Shown here piece after piece: positions 28,629 to 40,442 of a stretch of DNA of 46,353 nt. Below the pieces are notes generated by a model. The model had not been told where the DNA came from. It worked only from the letters and a program-made list of their open reading frames with translations, and did not search any database. The position numbers and the translations under genes were made by a program. Numbering within the stretch: the stretch's first letter is position 1; each line of letters opens with the position of its first letter. The DNA is from Oscillospiraceae bacterium (lineage in GTDB: Bacteria > Bacillota > Clostridia > Oscillospirales > Ruminococcaceae), in the NCBI GenBank assembly GCA_017472965.1, contig JAFUNR010000054.1, positions 1-46,353 of the forward strand, written 5' to 3'.

Positions 28629-28729
28629 ATAGGTGACAGACCGGCTGCTTTCCATCCCTGCGCTCTCCCCTCAAAAGGCGCAGCGTTTCTGTTTCCATGC
28701 AAAACAACACCTTCAGGAGGTATAACAAC

Positions 28730-29974
28730 ATGAAAAAGTATAAAATCGGTGTATTCGGCGCAGGCCGCGGCGTAACACTGGCGGAAAATTTCCGGCAGCT
28801 GGGCTGCGAGATCGTGGCGCTGTGCGATTTCAACGCGGAGCGTCTGGCTGCCGGTGCTGCGCAGCTGAATGCGGACGTGGCGCTGTACAGGGATTTTGAC
28901 AGCTTCATCGGACACGACATGGATGCGGTGATCCTTGCCAACTATTTCCACGAGCACGCGCCTTATGCCATCCGCTGCTTTGAAAAGGGTATCCATGTAT
29001 TCAGCGAGTGTATCTCCAACGGAACCATGGCCGAGGGCGTGGAGCTGATCCGTGCCCACGAAAAAAGCAATTGCGTGTACATGCTGGCGGAAAACTACCC
29101 CCAGATGCTGTTCAACCGGGAGATGCAGCGCATCTGTGCGGAAGGCTCACTGGGCAAGATCATGTATGCCGAGGGCGAATACAATCACCCCATCGATGTA
29201 TGGGACATCGGCTTCAAAAAGGAATATGTCTATTACGCCGACCACTGGCGCAACCATATTCCCGGCACCTATTACATTACCCATTCGCTGGGCCCCATCA
29301 TGAAGGCTACCGGCGCAACGCCGAAAAAGGTGACGGCATTCTCCATCTTCAGCCCGATCGAGGGCGATGTGCCCACCGCCAGCTATGCCGCGGACCGCAG
29401 CTCCATCATCACCACCCAGAATGATGACGGCTCGGTTTTCCGCGTGGTGGGCTGGGGACAGTTCGGCGCACATCACAACGCCTACCGCATCTGCGGCACC
29501 GACGGCCAGATCGAAAATCTGCGCGACAGCTCCCAGCGGGTGCTGCTGCGCTACAATTCCTGGAGCAAACCGGAGGGCGCACAGGAGATCTCCACCTATC
29601 TGCCCGGCTGGAACGATAAGGACGAGGAGCTGATCAAGGCAAGCGGCCACGGCGGCGGCGATTACATCACCGCGCGCATCTTTCTGGAGAGCATCGAAGC
29701 GGGCCACCAGCCCGAAATGCCCTTTGATATCCACAGCGCCGTGACCATGGCCTCCGTGGCGATTCTGGGTCACCGCAGCGTGCTTGCCGGCGGCATCCCC
29801 ATCGATATTCCCGATTTCCACACCGAGGAAGCCCGCGTACAGTACGAAAACGACCGCCAGACCCCGTTCTACGGCACGGACGGCAGCAAGCCCAGCATTC
29901 CCTGCTGCTCGCACCCCGACTTTGCCCCCGATGCCGCACAGGTGGAAAAGTTCCACGCCGTACTGCAGGGCTGA
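28730..29974 (+). CDS. Gfo/Idh/MocA-family protein A (tandem array, EKP-less)
   Basis: 414 residues. N-terminal NAD(P)-binding Rossmann fold (KIGVFGAGRG). Instead of the EKP lysine motif it has SECISNG (Glu93, Cys94, Ile95). THSLGPIMKATGA (His185) matches the TH-x-x-GP element shared with GH109-type members. GHGGGDY and a Cys-Cys pair (CCSHPDF) lie near the C-terminus. AGGAGG at 28715-28720 lies 9 bases before the ATG at 28730. First gene of a four-gene unit A-B-transporter-C. Predicted to bind NAD(H) tightly and act on a glycoside; dehydrogenase, epimerase or redox glycosidase cannot be separated from sequence. Confidence 0.87.
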   Translation: MKKYKIGVFGAGRGVTLAENFRQLGCEIVALCDFNAERLAAGAAQLNADVALYRDFDSFIGHDMDAVILANYFHEHAPYAIRCFEKGIHVFSECISNGTMAEGVELIRAHEKSNCVYMLAENYPQMLFNREMQRICAEGSLGKIMYAEGEYNHPIDVWDIGFKKEYVYYADHWRNHIPGTYYITHSLGPIMKATGATPKKVTAFSIFSPIEGDVPTASYAADRSSIITTQNDDGSVFRVVGWGQFGAHHNAYRICGTDGQIENLRDSSQRVLLRYNSWSKPEGAQEISTYLPGWNDKDEELIKASGHGGGDYITARIFLESIEAGHQPEMPFDIHSAVTMASVAILGHRSVLAGGIPIDIPDFHTEEARVQYENDRQTPFYGTDGSKPSIPCCSHPDFAPDAAQVEKFHAVLQG

Positions 29975-30068: not shown

Positions 30069-31313
30069 ATGAAAAAAATCAGGATCGGTCTGTTTGGCGC
30101 AGGCCGCGGCATCAATCTTGCCCTGAACTTCATGCTGCAGAACTGCGAAATCGTGGCGCTGTGCGATTTCAACGAAAAGCGCCTTACCGCAGGTGCTGCA
30201 CGCATCGGCCCGGGTGCGGCGCTGTACAGGGATTTTGACAGTTTCATCGAACACGACATGGATGCGGTGATCCTTGCCAACTACTTCCACGAGCACACGC
30301 CCTATGCCATCCGCTGTTTTGAAAAGGGCCTGCATGTTTTCTGCGAGTGCATCTCCAACGGCACCATGGCCGAGGGTGTGGAGCTGATCCGCGCCTTTGA
30401 AAAAAGCTCCAGCATCTATATGCTGGCAGAAAACTATCCCCAGATGCTGTTCAACCGGGAGATCAAACGCGTGTGCGATACCGGCACGCTGGGCCGACTG
30501 ATCTATGCCGAGGGCGAATACAACCATCCCCGCGACCCGTGGGAGCTCAGCTATCTGCGGGAATACAACTACTTCGAAAAGCACTGGCGCAACTACACCC
30601 CCAGCGAATACTATCTCACCCACTCACTGGGCCCCATCATGCGCGCCACCGGCGCAACACCAAAGCGGGTCTCCGCTTACACCGTCTTTGATCCTGTCAC
30701 AGAGATCTGTCCCAAGCCCAACCGGAATATCGATGTCTCTCCCTGCATCGTCACCCAGAATGACGACGGATCCATCTTCCGCTTTACCGGTTTCGGCCGA
30801 TCCGGCGGCCATCACAACGCCTACCGCGTGTGCGGCACAAAGGGCAGCATCGAAAACCTGCGCGACAATTCCGACCAGGTGCTGCTGCACTACAACGCAT
30901 GGCAGCTGCCGGAGGGCGCACAGGAGACATCCATCTATCTGCCCGACTGGAACGATAAGGACGAGGAGCTGATCAAGGCAAGCGGACATGGCGGCGGTGA
31001 TTTCATCACGGCGCGTATGTTTGTCGAGTGCATCCGGGAAGGCCGCCAGCCGGAGCACCCCTTTGATATCTACAGCGCCGTGACCATGTCCTCCGTGGGC
31101 ATCCTGGCCCACCGCTCCGTTATGGAAGGCAACCGGCCCTTCGACATCCCCGATTTCCGCAGGGAAGAGGACCGCATCCAATATGAAAACGACCGTCTGA
31201 CCCCCTTCTGGGGCACCGACGGCAGCGCCCCCAGCTACCCCTGCTGCAGCCATCCGGATTACCGCCCCACCGAGGAGCAGATGGAATCGTACTACGCCGT
31301 GCTGCAGGGCTGA
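30069..31313 (+). CDS. Gfo/Idh/MocA-family protein B (tandem array, EKP-less)
   Basis: 414 residues, close paralog of A and C. Rossmann motif RIGLFGAGRG, CECISNG in place of EKP, and THSLGPIMRATGA. It differs from A and C in the first 60 residues (ARIGPGAALY where both others have AQLNADVALY), so it is the most diverged copy at that end. At the 3' end it is nearly identical to C. GGGAGG precedes the ATG at 30069. Gap to A is 94 bases. Confidence 0.87.
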   Translation: MKKIRIGLFGAGRGINLALNFMLQNCEIVALCDFNEKRLTAGAARIGPGAALYRDFDSFIEHDMDAVILANYFHEHTPYAIRCFEKGLHVFCECISNGTMAEGVELIRAFEKSSSIYMLAENYPQMLFNREIKRVCDTGTLGRLIYAEGEYNHPRDPWELSYLREYNYFEKHWRNYTPSEYYLTHSLGPIMRATGATPKRVSAYTVFDPVTEICPKPNRNIDVSPCIVTQNDDGSIFRFTGFGRSGGHHNAYRVCGTKGSIENLRDNSDQVLLHYNAWQLPEGAQETSIYLPDWNDKDEELIKASGHGGGDFITARMFVECIREGRQPEHPFDIYSAVTMSSVGILAHRSVMEGNRPFDIPDFRREEDRIQYENDRLTPFWGTDGSAPSYPCCSHPDYRPTEEQMESYYAVLQG

Positions 31314-32318: not shown

Positions 32319-33566
32319 ATGAAACAATACAAGATCGGTGTTCTGGGCGCAGGACGCGGCATCGCACTGGCGCACAACTTCATGCTGCTGAACTGCGATA
32401 TCGTGGCTCTGTGCGATTTCAACGAGGAGCGTCTGGCTGCCGGTGCTGCGCAGCTGAATGCGGATGTGGCGCTGTACAGCGACTTTGACAGCTTCATCGA
32501 GCACGATATGGACGCGGTGATCCTTGCCAACTATTTCCACGAGCACACACCCTATGCCGTCCGCTGCTTTGAGAAGGGCCTTCATGTATTCTGCGAGTGC
32601 ATCTCCAACGGCACCATGGCCGAGGGTGTAGAGCTGATCCGCGCCCACGAAAAGAGCAGCAGCATCTTCTTTCTGGCAGAAAACTATCCCCAGATGCTGT
32701 TCAACCGGGAAATTCAGCGTGTCTGCGCCGGCGGTACGCTTGGCCGCCTGATCTATGCCGAGGGTGAATACAACCATCCCGGCGATCCGTGGGACGGCAG
32801 CTTCCGTAAGCAGTACACCTATTTTGAAAAGCACTGGCGCAACCACATCCCCAGCACCTACTACATCACCCATTCCCTTGGCCCCATCATGAAAGCCACC
32901 GACGCAACGCCCAAACGGGTCTCTGCCTACACCGTCTATGACCCCAGCGATGCCGCCATCCCCACCGCCAAAATGACCGCCGACCGCTGCCCCTGTATCG
33001 TCACCCAGAACGACGATGGCTCCATCTTCCGTCTGACCGCCTGCGGCACCTTCGGCGGGCACCACAACGCCTACCGCGTGTGCGGCACCAAGGGCAGCAT
33101 CGAAAATCTGCGCGATCTTTCCCAGCGGGTGCTGCTGCACTACAATGCATGGCAGCTGCCGGAGGGCGCAGAGGAGGTTTCCATCTATCTGCCCGACTGG
33201 AACGACAAGGATGAGGAGCTGATCAAGAGCAGCGGCCACGGCGGCGGCGACTACATCACCGCCCGTATGTTCCTGGAGTGCATCGAGGAGGGCCGTCAGC
33301 CGGAGCATCCCTTCGATATCTACAGCGCCGTGACCATGTCCTCGGTCGCCATTCTGGCGCACCGCTCTGTCATGGAAGGCAATGTTCCCTTTGACATTCC
33401 CGATTTCCACACCGAGGAAGCCCGCGCACAGTACGAAAATGACCGTCTGACCCCCTGCTGGGGCACCGACGGCACCGCCCCCAACTACCCCTGCTGCAGC
33501 CATCCGGATTACCGCCCCACCGAGGAGCAGCTTGCCCTGTACCGCAAGGATCTGGGCATTGAGTAA
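32319..33566 (+). CDS. Gfo/Idh/MocA-family protein C (tandem array, EKP-less, mosaic)
   Basis: 415 residues, paralog of A and B with KIGVLGAGRG, CECISNG and THSLGPIMKATDA. DNA comparison shows a mosaic. A 38-base stretch at 32427-32464 is identical to A (28838-28875) while B differs. A 46-base stretch at 33485-33530 is identical to B (31235-31280) while A differs. Its leader (TTCAGGAGGTATGACAACATG) is almost that of A. Last gene of the operon, followed by a strong terminator. Confidence 0.87.
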   Translation: MKQYKIGVLGAGRGIALAHNFMLLNCDIVALCDFNEERLAAGAAQLNADVALYSDFDSFIEHDMDAVILANYFHEHTPYAVRCFEKGLHVFCECISNGTMAEGVELIRAHEKSSSIFFLAENYPQMLFNREIQRVCAGGTLGRLIYAEGEYNHPGDPWDGSFRKQYTYFEKHWRNHIPSTYYITHSLGPIMKATDATPKRVSAYTVYDPSDAAIPTAKMTADRCPCIVTQNDDGSIFRLTACGTFGGHHNAYRVCGTKGSIENLRDLSQRVLLHYNAWQLPEGAEEVSIYLPDWNDKDEELIKSSGHGGGDYITARMFLECIEEGRQPEHPFDIYSAVTMSSVAILAHRSVMEGNVPFDIPDFHTEEARAQYENDRLTPCWGTDGTAPNYPCCSHPDYRPTEEQLALYRKDLGIE

Positions 33567-34810: not shown

Positions 34811-36917
<2,107 letters not shown>

Positions 36918-37004
36918 ATATGAATTGTCCTTTCTGTTTGGTGGTGGCAAGTTCCCAATTTGGGAACTTGCCGGATGGGAACGGAAACGAATCGAAGGGA
37001 ATGA

Positions 37005-38591
37005 TTATCGCTCCTGTTCCTTTTTGTGTTCGATTTTTCTGCCAAGTGTCTGTTCAAGATTGTGGCGAATGGTATCAAGGCGCTGTGCTTCTTCCTTGAC
37101 AGTCTGGTACTGGTTGTAAAGCTCGTTCTTCTCTTTGATGAGCTGTTCCACTTCTGTCTGCAACGCCTTGTAGCTCGGCAGCTTCTTGAGTCCCTTGGAA
37201 TCAAAATAGCGTTTGGCGGCGTTCAGAATGATGTAGTCGCTGTCATGCTCGTCACGATATTTCTGACGGGCTTTGTCATTCTTGCAGGCTTTCATTTCCT
37301 CGATCACATATCTGGTCTTGTGGTAGTTCAGCACATGATTACGAAGTTCTTTCTTTTCTGCGATTGCAGCTTCCACGGTTTTCATATCAGTGCGAATATC
37401 GCTCAGCTTCTCATGGGCGGCATCGCAAGCGTCAGCCAATGCTTCAGGAGACTCGAATCCCATTTCCTGATACAGCACAAAGGCTCGGCTGGCATTTTTG
37501 AGATTGTATTTCTTTGCCCAATTCTCGTAGCCCTTACCTTTTTCCTTTGCGGCACTCACATCCACCATGCGATTGACGGTATCACGCTCATTGATGGCTT
37601 TCTGCATAGCCGGTGCGGAATGGACGGGATCGGATTTTGCCCTCACTCGTTTTGCGTTTCTGACAAAGATGGCGAACACAGCCGCTTTATCAAAATCATC
37701 GCCCAGCTTTCTTGCCGTAATGGGCTTGGTGCGGTCGGGTGTGAGATAGGACAATCTTCCTCGGCTCTCTTTGACGGTGATGCCACGGCGGAGCAGTTTT
37801 TCTGCGAAGTCCTCAAAGCTGATTGCATCAGAAAGTGCCATGCGGATTTCTTCACGGAGCTTGTCCTTGTCAGTTTCAAACTTTGTCTGTTTGACTGGTA
37901 AGCCCTGTTCGGCAAGGGCGGCGTTTTCTTCATCCAGCGCAAGCTGTCCTTTTGTCTTTGCCCAATACTCACGTTCTGTAATTCGGGTTCGGCTTCCGTT
38001 CAGCAGATCAATCTGATACAGACCCGCATCGTGGCACATCTCCATTACTTCGGAGCGAAAGTATTCCATAGCTGCGTTGGTGCATCGGTGCTTCATGCCC
38101 GGTTGCGTGTCGCACGGTCTGTCCATATACGGCATGAACGGGACTTCCATAATTCGCAGAGAATTGATAACGATGTGTACATGAACATTGCCGCTACCGT
38201 TGTGTCCGTCGGGGTGTGTACAGACGATAGCTTGATGTCCGGGAAAATGATTTTTACAAAATTCTTCGCCTAACTGTTGTGCCATATCTACGTTCAATCC
38301 ATGGTCGGGAACATCTTTAGGGTCGAAGCTGATGATATAGTGATGACTTTTTACATCTTCCCGTTTTTGATTTTTGCCGTAGCGGAGGTTGGCTCTCAAA
38401 CAGGCAATCGCAAAATCTTCGTCACCGCAGTTCAGCGTGGAAATGCGGTAATCCTGTCTTGGGATAAGTCTGCCGTTTTCATCCAGGGTGGGCTTCATGG
38501 TAAACTCATCATGCTCAAAAGTGAGGTAGGCTTCAGCGGCGGAGTAGTAGGTATTTTTAGAGCTTATATGCTTGAACGTTGCCAACAGCAT
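37005..38591 (-). CDS. MobP-type relaxase (mobilization nuclease)
   Basis: 528 residues. The N-terminal 220 are the relaxase domain: candidate catalytic Tyr in NTYYSAAEAYLTF, HHYIISFDP, and the metal motif HPDGHNGSGNVHVHIVINS. It should nick oriT and stay on the 5' end during transfer. The remainder is long alpha-helical, with coiled coil from about 390. It starts with ATG at 38591 (a GTG sits one codon earlier) after AAGGTAGG. The start lies inside the mobC gene, overlapping it by 35 bases, so translation is coupled. Confidence 0.92.
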   Translation of the reverse strand: MLLATFKHISSKNTYYSAAEAYLTFEHDEFTMKPTLDENGRLIPRQDYRISTLNCGDEDFAIACLRANLRYGKNQKREDVKSHHYIISFDPKDVPDHGLNVDMAQQLGEEFCKNHFPGHQAIVCTHPDGHNGSGNVHVHIVINSLRIMEVPFMPYMDRPCDTQPGMKHRCTNAAMEYFRSEVMEMCHDAGLYQIDLLNGSRTRITEREYWAKTKGQLALDEENAALAEQGLPVKQTKFETDKDKLREEIRMALSDAISFEDFAEKLLRRGITVKESRGRLSYLTPDRTKPITARKLGDDFDKAAVFAIFVRNAKRVRAKSDPVHSAPAMQKAINERDTVNRMVDVSAAKEKGKGYENWAKKYNLKNASRAFVLYQEMGFESPEALADACDAAHEKLSDIRTDMKTVEAAIAEKKELRNHVLNYHKTRYVIEEMKACKNDKARQKYRDEHDSDYIILNAAKRYFDSKGLKKLPSYKALQTEVEQLIKEKNELYNQYQTVKEEAQRLDTIRHNLEQTLGRKIEHKKEQER

Positions 38592-38955
38592 CACCTACCT
38601 TTTTCATTACTTCAAATTTCAGCGTGGCGAGATCAGCGGCGGCATCCCGTAATTCCTTTGCCATGGCGGGATAGGGACTGTGCCATTCGTTGAGATGTCG
38701 GGCAATCTGATTCAGATTGTTACCGATTCTTCCATACTCAGCGGTCAGTTTGCCAACAGCAGCGAGCAGGTCATCGCTGACCAATGTTGCAACGATGGTC
38801 GGCTTGATGGTTGCACCGGAGATGGCTTCACGGATAAACTCCGATTGATTCATGTCGTAAATCTCCAGGCGATGAAGAAAGTCGGCGTGTTCTTCATCGT
38901 CCAGATGGGTTTTTACGATGTGGGTTCGCTTCGGTGTGTTGTAGGTTTTTGTCAT
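38557..38955 (-). CDS. mobC: MobC-like relaxosome accessory protein
   Basis: 132 residues. A ribbon-helix-helix-like N-terminal half (HIVKTHLDDEEHADFLHRLEIYDMNQSEFIREAISG) and the MobC signature LTAEYGRIGNNLNQIARHLNE in the C-terminal half. Such proteins bind oriT and help the relaxase open the nick site. GGAGG lies 7 bases before the ATG at 38955. First coding gene after the leader RNA and oriT candidate; overlaps the relaxase gene. Confidence 0.9.
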   Translation of the reverse strand: MTKTYNTPKRTHIVKTHLDDEEHADFLHRLEIYDMNQSEFIREAISGATIKPTIVATLVSDDLLAAVGKLTAEYGRIGNNLNQIARHLNEWHSPYPAMAKELRDAAADLATLKFEVMKKVGDAVGNVQAYKL

Positions 38956-39120: not shown

Positions 39121-39194
39121 CTACCCAGCCTTTTCGTATTCGCCGATTTTTCAGGTTCACGCATTTGGCGCTGAACGGTGTTTTGGAAAAATGA

Positions 39195-39454
39195 CAAAAC
39201 AAAAAGAGCCGATTACACAAAACATCAGAAATCGGCGGGAGCATCGCTCTCGCTTCAAAGTGATGTTCTATGTAATCGGCTCTGAAAAATCAAAGTCGGG
39301 TTCTGCTTCTTACAGCTCCCGCCAACAGAACCAATGGCGTGGTGGAGCAGTTCGGGACTTCCAGTGTACCGATACCGTGTCGGACAATTCCGACTCTCAT
39401 AAAATATGTTTGAACATTTCAATATTCAGTTTTTGCGTGGATAAACTTTCCACG
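39195..39454 (-). ncRNA. Structured leader RNA with terminator upstream of the mobilization genes
   Basis: On the minus strand the expected RNA starts at about 39454 with a 5'-terminal hairpin CGTGGA-7-TCCACG (39436-39454). Next come GTCGGA-4-TCCGAC (39379-39394), then GGTTCTG/CAGAACC (39299-39332), which shows GGCGGGAGC in its loop. Last is a long terminator stem: AGAGCCGATTACA/TGTAATCGGCTCT plus AACATCA/TGATGTT plus an inner hairpin, followed by TTTTTGTTTTG. The loop GGCGGGAGC is exactly complementary to GCTCCCGCC inside the terminator (39234-39242), so an alternative fold is available. An open frame of 114 codons on the plus strand here is rejected as chance. Confidence 0.65.
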
Positions 39455-39459
39455 ACATT

Positions 39460-39488
39460 ATTATACAAACAGCGACACCGATTGTCAA
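39460..39488 (-). promoter_or_regulatory. Consensus promoter of the mobilization leader RNA
   Basis: On the minus strand perfect TTGACA (39483-39488), 17-base spacer, perfect TATAAT (39460-39465). Confidence 0.85.
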
Positions 39489-39539
39489 GATTTGCACATA
39501 AAATGTCTGACAGCGAAGTTGTATCTTTTTTATGAGCAG

Positions 39540-39711
39540 GGGGCGGCAGCATTTTTGCTGTCGCCCCTTGATTGCCTTACAGCGGAGACGAGCGAACTTG
39601 TCAACGGCGGGCGAAGCCCGTTTATCTTGACCGTTGACATGGGCGGTCGGCTCTGCTAAGCACTAACGAAACAGGGCGACCAACTATTACGGTTGATCGC
39701 CTTTGGCTTAG
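39540..39711. repeat. Cluster of inverted repeats between the mob leader and the nitroreductase gene
   Basis: No gene seen between 39489 and 39776. It holds GGGGCGGCAGCA/TGCTGTCGCCCC (39540-39567, one mismatch); GTCAACGG/CCGTTGAC enclosing CGGGC-GAA-GCCCG (39600-39638); and CTAAGC/GCTTAG enclosing GGCGACCAAC/GTTGATCGCC (39656-39711). The last may end transcription of the nitroreductase operon, though its T-tract is poor. A single-strand origin or recombination site is also possible. Confidence 0.5.
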
Positions 39712-39776
39712 TCATTATTTAATTTTTTCGATTCCAAACAGAAATTATATCGTTCGACAAATCATTATTTTATCGA

Positions 39777-40442
39777 TTACTCCCAATCAAAATTTTCTTT
39801 TCCAGCACCGATTTCAAAATGATATTTACCAATACCGAGGTCAATACCCGAGAAGTGGCCTTCCCCTGCGGTGATGGTTACTTTGCGCCCGTCACCATTG
39901 ACCATGTAAGGCTGCTTATTCAGTGCCGTAGGAGCATACAGAAGAGCATCGACTCCATCTACAAACCATTGAGGTGCAGTTCCATTATACTGGCTTATTT
40001 CCGCTGCGGTTTTGGATTTATGCTGTACCCCCTGGGTCTGACCATAGCCGATGGCGATTACGCCATTGATGCGAACATCCTTGGTTTCCAGGTGCTTCAT
40101 GGCACCCTTGCCGCTGAACATACCGCCCACCCACCAGGTGTTCAAGCCGAGGGTCTGGGCGTACAGACACAAATCAGCACCGCAATATCCCAGTTTCTCA
40201 TCCAAATTAGAACATTCCTTGCCTGCAAGCACGATGTAGCTGTGGACAGTCTTGGTCAGCAGCATCTTTGCCATACCACCGATGCCGTCAGAATTGCCTG
40301 TAACCAGTTTCAAGTTCAGTCCGTGAGCGGCATTGTTTTCTGCGATTCTGGCATTCAGTAGTTCCACCAGATCGGCAGGAATGGGTTTATCCGTATATTT
40401 GCGAACCATGTGTCTTTGTTTAATTGCTTCTTTGATCGTCAT
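39777..40442 (-). CDS. Nitroreductase-family FMN oxidoreductase
   Basis: 221 residues. It begins TIKEAIKQRHMVRKYTDKPI, the FMN-phosphate-binding start of nitroreductases (R-x-S/V-x-R), and has LGLNTWWVGG in the middle. Family members reduce nitro groups, quinones or flavins with NAD(P)H. It is of the shorter two-domain-repeat type lacking the usual C-terminal GYP extension. AGGAGG precedes the ATG at 40442, which overlaps the stop of the upstream gene by 4 bases (ATGA), so translation is coupled. Last gene of the run. Confidence 0.85.
   Translation of the reverse strand: MTIKEAIKQRHMVRKYTDKPIPADLVELLNARIAENNAAHGLNLKLVTGNSDGIGGMAKMLLTKTVHSYIVLAGKECSNLDEKLGYCGADLCLYAQTLGLNTWWVGGMFSGKGAMKHLETKDVRINGVIAIGYGQTQGVQHKSKTAAEISQYNGTAPQWFVDGVDALLYAPTALNKQPYMVNGDGRKVTITAGEGHFSGIDLGIGKYHFEIGAGKENFDWE

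Follow-up and report, generated by a model that had tools for sequence, protein, structure and literature searches.

A predicted pseudoknot-bearing leader RNA at the head of mobilization operons in Clostridia

The window, a stretch of 46,353 nt from an Oscillospiraceae bacterium, contains on its minus strand a perfect promoter followed by about 260 nt without a gene, which end in a long hairpin with a U-tract, and then the genes of a mobilization operon. Integrative mobilizable elements abound in gut bacteria; to our knowledge, the silencing and switching-on of their transfer genes are poorly known. A preliminary description had read the leader as a switch of four hairpins, in which the loop of the third would pair with the terminator and break its inner stem. 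Of this interpretation, the structured leader and its position at the head of the operon are supported, and the switch between loop and terminator is not.

The leader and its operon in the window

The region shows the following features, with the basis of each in brackets:

39488-39460, minus strand: leader promoter, TTGACA-17-TATAAT (12/12 match)
39453-39437, minus strand: H1, 5' hairpin GUGGA/UCCAC near the transcription start (window fold and covariation)
39423..39432, minus strand: conserved box AAACUGAAUA (recurrence among homologs)
39394-39379, minus strand: H2, hairpin GUCGG/CCGAC (window fold and covariation)
39371-39353, minus strand: P3, hairpin CGGUAC/GUCCCG with one mismatch in the window (window fold and covariation)
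39336..39348, minus strand: 5' strand of the predicted pseudoknot, GCUCC..GCC, partner of the H3 loop (covariation and complementarity)
39332-39299, minus strand: H3, hairpin GGUUCUG/CAGAACC, whose loop contains GGCGGGAGC at 39315-39323 (own against cross pairing)
39295-39280, minus strand: short linker hairpin CUUUGA/UCAGAG, overlapping the terminator base (by eye)
39283-39205, minus strand: leader terminator hairpin (23 standard pairs and U-tract)
39195..39204, minus strand: U-tract of the terminator (sequence)
39130-39022, minus strand: oriT-like block between leader and mobC, its name being inferred (conserved in most of 80 mobC loci)
38557..38955, minus strand: mobC, NikA-like / MobC_2 / MobC (Pfam)
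37005..38594, minus strand: relaxase PF03432 (Pfam)
36579..36950, minus strand: small ORF with no Pfam family (ORF list and Pfam)
34825..36540, minus strand: large serine recombinase with Resolvase, Recombinase, DUF4368 and Zn_ribbon_recom (Pfam)

The observation made in the preliminary description is confirmed in outline, with a perfect promoter on the minus strand (12/12), a folded leader and a long terminator with a T-tract; the promoter, the fold and the genes that follow support a structured leader which opens the mobilization operon and brings its promoter and a built-in terminator with it. Between 36000 and 43000 this promoter is the sole 12/12 match, and sites of at least 9/12 number 11 against 8.7 in shuffles, so that nothing below a perfect match is notable. 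For the leader (259 nt) the folding energy is -94.3 kcal/mol, whereas 200 shuffles give -62.6 +/- 4.7 kcal/mol and none of them is as good (z -6.7). Its minimum-energy fold contains H1, H2, P3 and the terminator hairpin, the latter with 22 of its 23 standard pairs. H3, the hairpin said to present the loop sequence, is absent from this fold (0/7 pairs, mean probability 0.01), as is the pseudoknot helix (mean probability 0.24), and forcing either one alone costs 2.5-2.9 kcal/mol (2.9 for H3); the nested-fold method cannot score the two together. The four hairpins first described become five when homologs are compared (H1, H2, P3, H3 and the terminator), plus the pseudoknot. The linker hairpin is common, not universal, among 12 members (by eye). 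An antisense ORF occupies 39191-39535, and indels in L010 seem to break its frame (by eye). In the basal 14 nt of the terminator, mean pairwise identity over 12 members is 0.69 in the 5' arm and 0.58 in the 3' arm, as if the sequence of the 5' arm itself might matter.

The element of the window appears to start near 39739, since homology with L004 begins there. The gene at 39777-40442 is co-directional with the leader and ends about 40 nt outside this suggested left end. Upstream of the promoter, at 39540-39638, there is a hairpin block which many other mobC elements also have, at a distance of about 0.4-1.5 kb before oriT; in L016, L029 and L033 small ORFs, some of them sigma-factor-like by eye, are found between this block and oriT, and in the window the leader occupies their place.

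Covariation, promoters and distribution of the leader

The sequence GGCGGGAGC of the H3 loop, which has a complement in the terminator considered below, is equally complementary to GCTCC...GCC just upstream of H3 (39348-39336), with 8/8 pairs in the window and 10 close homologs. The two strands co-vary: GCUCC/GGAGC in the window is replaced elsewhere by CAUCCC/GGGAUG, CGUUCCG/CGGAACG, ACCUCCG/CGGAGGU, CGCCACC/GGUGGCG, CACUC/GAGUG, CCUUC/GAAGG or UUGCC/GGCAA (by eye). Because the upstream strand and the H3 loop change together in diverged members, the leader is read as a pseudoknot RNA, and the conserved partner of the loop is, on this comparison, the strand just upstream, in a predicted H-type pseudoknot. 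Over 13 representatives including the window, the pseudoknot strands pair at -14.8 kcal/mol with their own partner against -11.1 kcal/mol when permuted, with 0/20,000 permutations as good, and H3 pairs at -8.4 kcal/mol with itself against -3.3 kcal/mol across members (13 members). The same 0/20,000 is found for H1, H2 and P3, in hand-picked sets of eight, nine and 12 members, respectively, the H1 set leaving out members without a clear H1. Strands and boundaries of the stems were set manually in 23 sequences, the pseudoknot and H3 being compared over 13 representatives and the antiterminator over 12. Stem covariation among homologs, on which the preliminary description had staked its proposal, is present in H1, H2, P3 and the pseudoknot; since these and H3 all covary, the upstream folds are under selection.

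Two other comparisons are weaker. The shuffle test of the pseudoknot in single sequences gives p<=0.05 in 10/23 and 0.054 in the window. Among close relatives 94.7% of cells are paired, and changes on either side occur together in four pairs (0.7 in shuffles); of the five covariation measures, one is not above shuffles. RNAalifold on 12 closer sequences draws another pairing in place of H2, and its covariation term is only -0.2. Sequences as similar as these prove little, and the diverged members decide.

In 28 homologs the best promoter matches 9 to 12 of 12 positions, and 11 or 12 in 24 of them; shuffled upstream stretches reach at least 11 in 3/2600 and at least 9 in 799/2600, so the weakest promoter (L104, with 9) means nothing alone. 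Not in the set are L072, which by eye has no consensus promoter, L120, whose 5' end is missing, L134, in which the conserved box was not found, and near-duplicates. The ACUGAAUA box is present in most members by eye, being variable in L006, L118, L123, L126 and L127, and the distance from promoter to box is 23-40 nt in 27 of the 28 homologs and 7 nt in L092. Eleven of the 28 (L103, L104, L106, L118, L119, L121, L122, L125, L127, L128 and L131) show within or adjoining the promoter spacer a LexA-like box such as CGAACAAATGTTCG, which we take to be the LexA site of Gram-positive bacteria; shuffles show it in 6/2600, and the promoter of the window has none. In L005, L007 and L008, up to about 400 nt upstream of the leader, palindromes of the type TTCTGCCCAACTTGGGCAGAA stand in rows, separated by T-rich spacers (by eye).

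A protein search with mobC gives 80 loci, eight of which contain the leader by BLASTN. The terminator as a DNA pattern (at most three mismatches) is found in 6/394 genomes of the order, and a reversed control in none. A covariance model built from 12 sequences finds the leader in 6/391 genomes of the class and in 21/394 of the order, distributed over 20 genera, the two genome samples overlapping; all three counts include the genome of the window, and among the 21 genomes G515 retains just the terminator hairpin, while some of the rest hold degenerate copies. By these matches the leader is a member of a predicted RNA family that is widespread in many Clostridia. Pattern scans of viral contigs give one homolog (L083), and further scans none; BLASTN of the leader and L106 against plasmids and phages, and of L094 against plasmids, gives no match.

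The preliminary description knew of no RNA with such an architecture, and Rfam 15 and the literature searches agree with it. At the gathering cut-offs of Rfam 15 the window has no match and 18 related loci, some of them containing only the second RNA (below) or a terminator remnant, show only tRNAs. The best sub-threshold match near the leader is SurA (18.4 bits against the 100 needed), upstream and on the other strand, and relaxed thresholds give chance-like matches or none, none of them credible. In the main text of two catalogues of structured RNAs (PMC8040213, PMC2864571), the six terms sought in each, for mobile elements or for structure, are absent. The literature searches, mostly of openly available papers and of main text, gave no earlier description, and an earlier listing may exist elsewhere. 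Leader RNAs that act in cis on a transfer operon are a known kind; this leader, its pseudoknot plan and the elements that host it appear to be undescribed.

Downstream genes and a second RNA

A relaxase or serine recombinase match in sense orientation is found within 8 kb downstream of the leader in 23 of 31 loci, and in antisense in none. Without the eight loci found through mobC, 15 of 23 show it, window included; among these 15, L111, L140, L143 and L146 show only fragments or genes running to the contig end. Neither gene is found downstream in eight of the 31 loci (L097, L108, L110, L137, L141, L147, L148 and L149), with less than 900 nt of contig left in L108 and L149. The count omits six near-duplicates of L005, L007, L008 and L072 (L085, L086, L090, L095, L114 and L115) and three loci with only the terminator hairpin (L087, L089 and L091). 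In L087 and L089, which belong to the same genome, degenerate copies of this hairpin or its 5' arm lie away from any mobilization gene seen. The relaxases which follow the leader belong to three Pfam families, PF03432 (window and L112), PF01076 (L109 and L145) and PF03389 (L096), so the leader is tied to the operon head and the recombinase, and not to one kind of relaxase.

Two relatives show other arrangements after the leader. The first ORF of L145, to which an ORF at the equivalent place in L109 is related, begins 39 nt past the terminator, with a ribosome-binding site. A gap of that length leaves no room for a promoter, so the terminator is presumably passed at times, and this placement is the best single argument that transcription would proceed past it. 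In L117/L137, which are the same locus, an unrelated terminator stands in place of the leader's own, and the gene after it has a separate promoter (10/12).

A second conserved structured block of about 100 nt starts 17-147 nt after the terminator in 20 of the 31 loci, with the sequence plan AAUGACCG...GGGAUAUGA...GGCAGGAACGACAUUC...ACGGC. Examples of this second RNA are:

L005, 3161-3263
L112, 8692-8816
L165 and L174, near 1500

Its own model finds it in 60/394 genomes of the order, often in several copies, and places one after the leader in the genome of L109; it is not found in the window by this model and has no match in Rfam. In L165 and L174 it follows a promoter directly, without the leader (by eye). 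This promoter-adjacent placement, and its position 3' of the terminator elsewhere, again suggest that the terminator is sometimes passed. An oriT function was considered for the second RNA and is thought unlikely, since the relaxases that follow it belong to three families and since promoters directly precede it in L165 and L174 (by eye). Upstream of the second RNA in L163, L167, L168 and L170, and upstream of the leader in L006, short units that look like hairpins (CAGTSGGAACAAGTGARRG or GGCTACCACTTGAGGGG) stand in series with T-rich DNA after them, resembling arrays of small terminators (by eye).

Readings of the leader and comparison with known systems

The leader probably acts in cis: within an integrative mobilizable element, it would set how much transcription passes its terminator and enters the operon of mobilization and recombinase genes. 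This reading starts from the promoter, the covarying stems, the position and the gene of L145, all seen at the sequence level; transcription of the leader, its termination, the read-through and a controlling factor are what we infer. From the strong promoter a transcript would form H1, the CUGAAUA box, H2, P3 and the H-type pseudoknot, and the polymerase would then meet a strong intrinsic terminator ahead of oriT, mobC, the relaxase and the recombinase. The pseudoknot domain would set, in cis, how often the polymerase passes this terminator, which may also shield the operon from host transcription entering from the co-directional upstream gene. The likeliest form would be antitermination in the style of canT, put or EAR, and a signal-responsive attenuator would be the second. 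The order of promoter, folded RNA, terminator and transfer operon, the exchangeable terminator and the lack of an antiterminator are consistent with the canT-like scheme.

For the attenuator or riboswitch form, a 5' leader with its own promoter, a conserved fold and an intrinsic terminator are found in the sequence. Pairing of the leader domain with the 5' arm of the terminator gives -13.3 kcal/mol for own against -12.7 kcal/mol for cross partners, with 0/12 members at p<0.05, so no conserved antiterminator exclusive with the terminator is found and a classical switch is not seen. A long antiterminator is not found either; only the short linker hairpin overlaps the terminator base.

Instead of acting in cis, the leader might be a stand-alone small RNA of about 250 nt, ending at the terminator and acting in trans on transcripts of the element or the host. 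A strong promoter with a long terminator, the lack of a conserved antiterminator, the eight of 31 loci without mobilization genes found downstream and the 10/12 promoter of the downstream gene in L137 would all fit such an RNA, but its sense-oriented placement at the operon head does not, and the L145 gene and the second RNA need read-through; this is judged unlikely. It is still less probable that the terminator is only an insulator against host transcription and the upstream folds are incidental: Tn916 has an insulating terminator, T1 (in the part of PMC11658703 considered), the neighbouring gene in the window is co-directional and the terminator is exchangeable in L117, whereas the covariation of H1, H2, P3, H3 and the pseudoknot argues that the folds have been selected.

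The kissing of the H3 loop with the terminator, breaking its inner stem, has very little probability left. The exact complementarity of GGCGGGAGC (39323-39315) to GCTCCCGCC (39242-39234), which the preliminary description had noticed, is real, with 9/9 pairs in the window and seven close relatives (8/12 rows) and p 0.002 in the window; as a conserved switch pairing it does not hold. It falls to 8/9 in L007 and L010, 7/9 in L083 and 5/9 in L094, and reaches p<=0.05 in only 4/23 sequences, window included; over 13 representatives including the window, own partners give -14.8 against -14.4 kcal/mol for cross partners; and in L117, where the unrelated terminator lacks the partner, the loop GGAGC still has its upstream partner GCUCC (by eye). 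This mechanism is therefore rejected, as its pairing is neither conserved nor covarying. The pairing may still form in leaders of the window type, although selection does not seem to keep it across the family. A role at the level of DNA, as a piece of oriT or a recombinase site with hairpins acting as single-stranded DNA, agrees with the adjoining oriT-like block, but is the least credible reading given the consensus promoter 23-40 nt ahead of the box in nearly all homologs (7 nt in L092), the fixed orientation with the U-tract on the transcript strand and the relaxases of three families.

For the preferred reading, a cis-acting leader setting read-through, the nearest known plan is that of Tn916, as given in the part of PMC11658703 considered, where canT is an orientation-specific and most likely cis-acting RNA which carries transcription through terminator T1, and T1 otherwise insulates the element from host promoters. 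Both are RNAs borne by the element, placed after an element promoter and before transfer genes, and concerned with an insulating terminator; in Tn916, however, promoter and canT lie at the opposite end and T1 comes within their reach only when the element is circular, whereas promoter, RNA and terminator of the leader are contiguous in the integrated element. Neither the leader model (R1) nor the second-RNA model (R2) matches, up to E 10, the Tn916-like element of pCF10 (identified by annotation), so the resemblance to canT is a likeness of plan and not kinship. In conAn of pLS20 an RNA component, conAn2, also starts a Gram-positive conjugation operon and is linked to terminators; compared by description, from the part of PMC8955417 considered, conAn differs in requiring the protein ConAn1 as well and in having many internal terminators as its targets. 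In the window, a simple scan calls no minus-strand terminator between 36000 and 39195; it permits only loops of 3-8, and misses the leader's own terminator too. Riboswitches and attenuators share the succession of 5' leader, structured domain, terminator and gene, but the leader has no conserved, mutually exclusive antiterminator and no Rfam match. EAR and put, as named in the parts of PMC8955417 and PMC11658703 considered, act by RNA-only antitermination, as proposed for the leader; they differ in hosts and operons, the leader matches no Rfam family, and otherwise they are set apart by description.

The leader is a specific RNA whose structure and promoter are defined and whose point of control can be tested, and it is common to elements with different relaxase families. 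If it is an antiterminator, RNA-based antitermination, as in Tn916, would reach a distinct group of elements that is itself widespread, and through the LexA-like boxes some members of the family would be linked to DNA damage as well. Only tentatively, and with the odds rather against it, the leader may represent a new class of RNA-only antiterminator, a small pseudoknot RNA by which polymerase would get past a built-in insulating terminator; together with the second RNA it would be a common transfer switch to which mobile elements of gut Clostridia have joined relaxases of at least three families, with an SOS-type promoter in one branch.

Elsewhere in the window, three successive ORFs (28697-29974, 30069-31313 and 32319-33566) show very similar N-termini (GAGRGI.LA.NF) and are apparently tandem paralogs of an oxidoreductase type (by eye).
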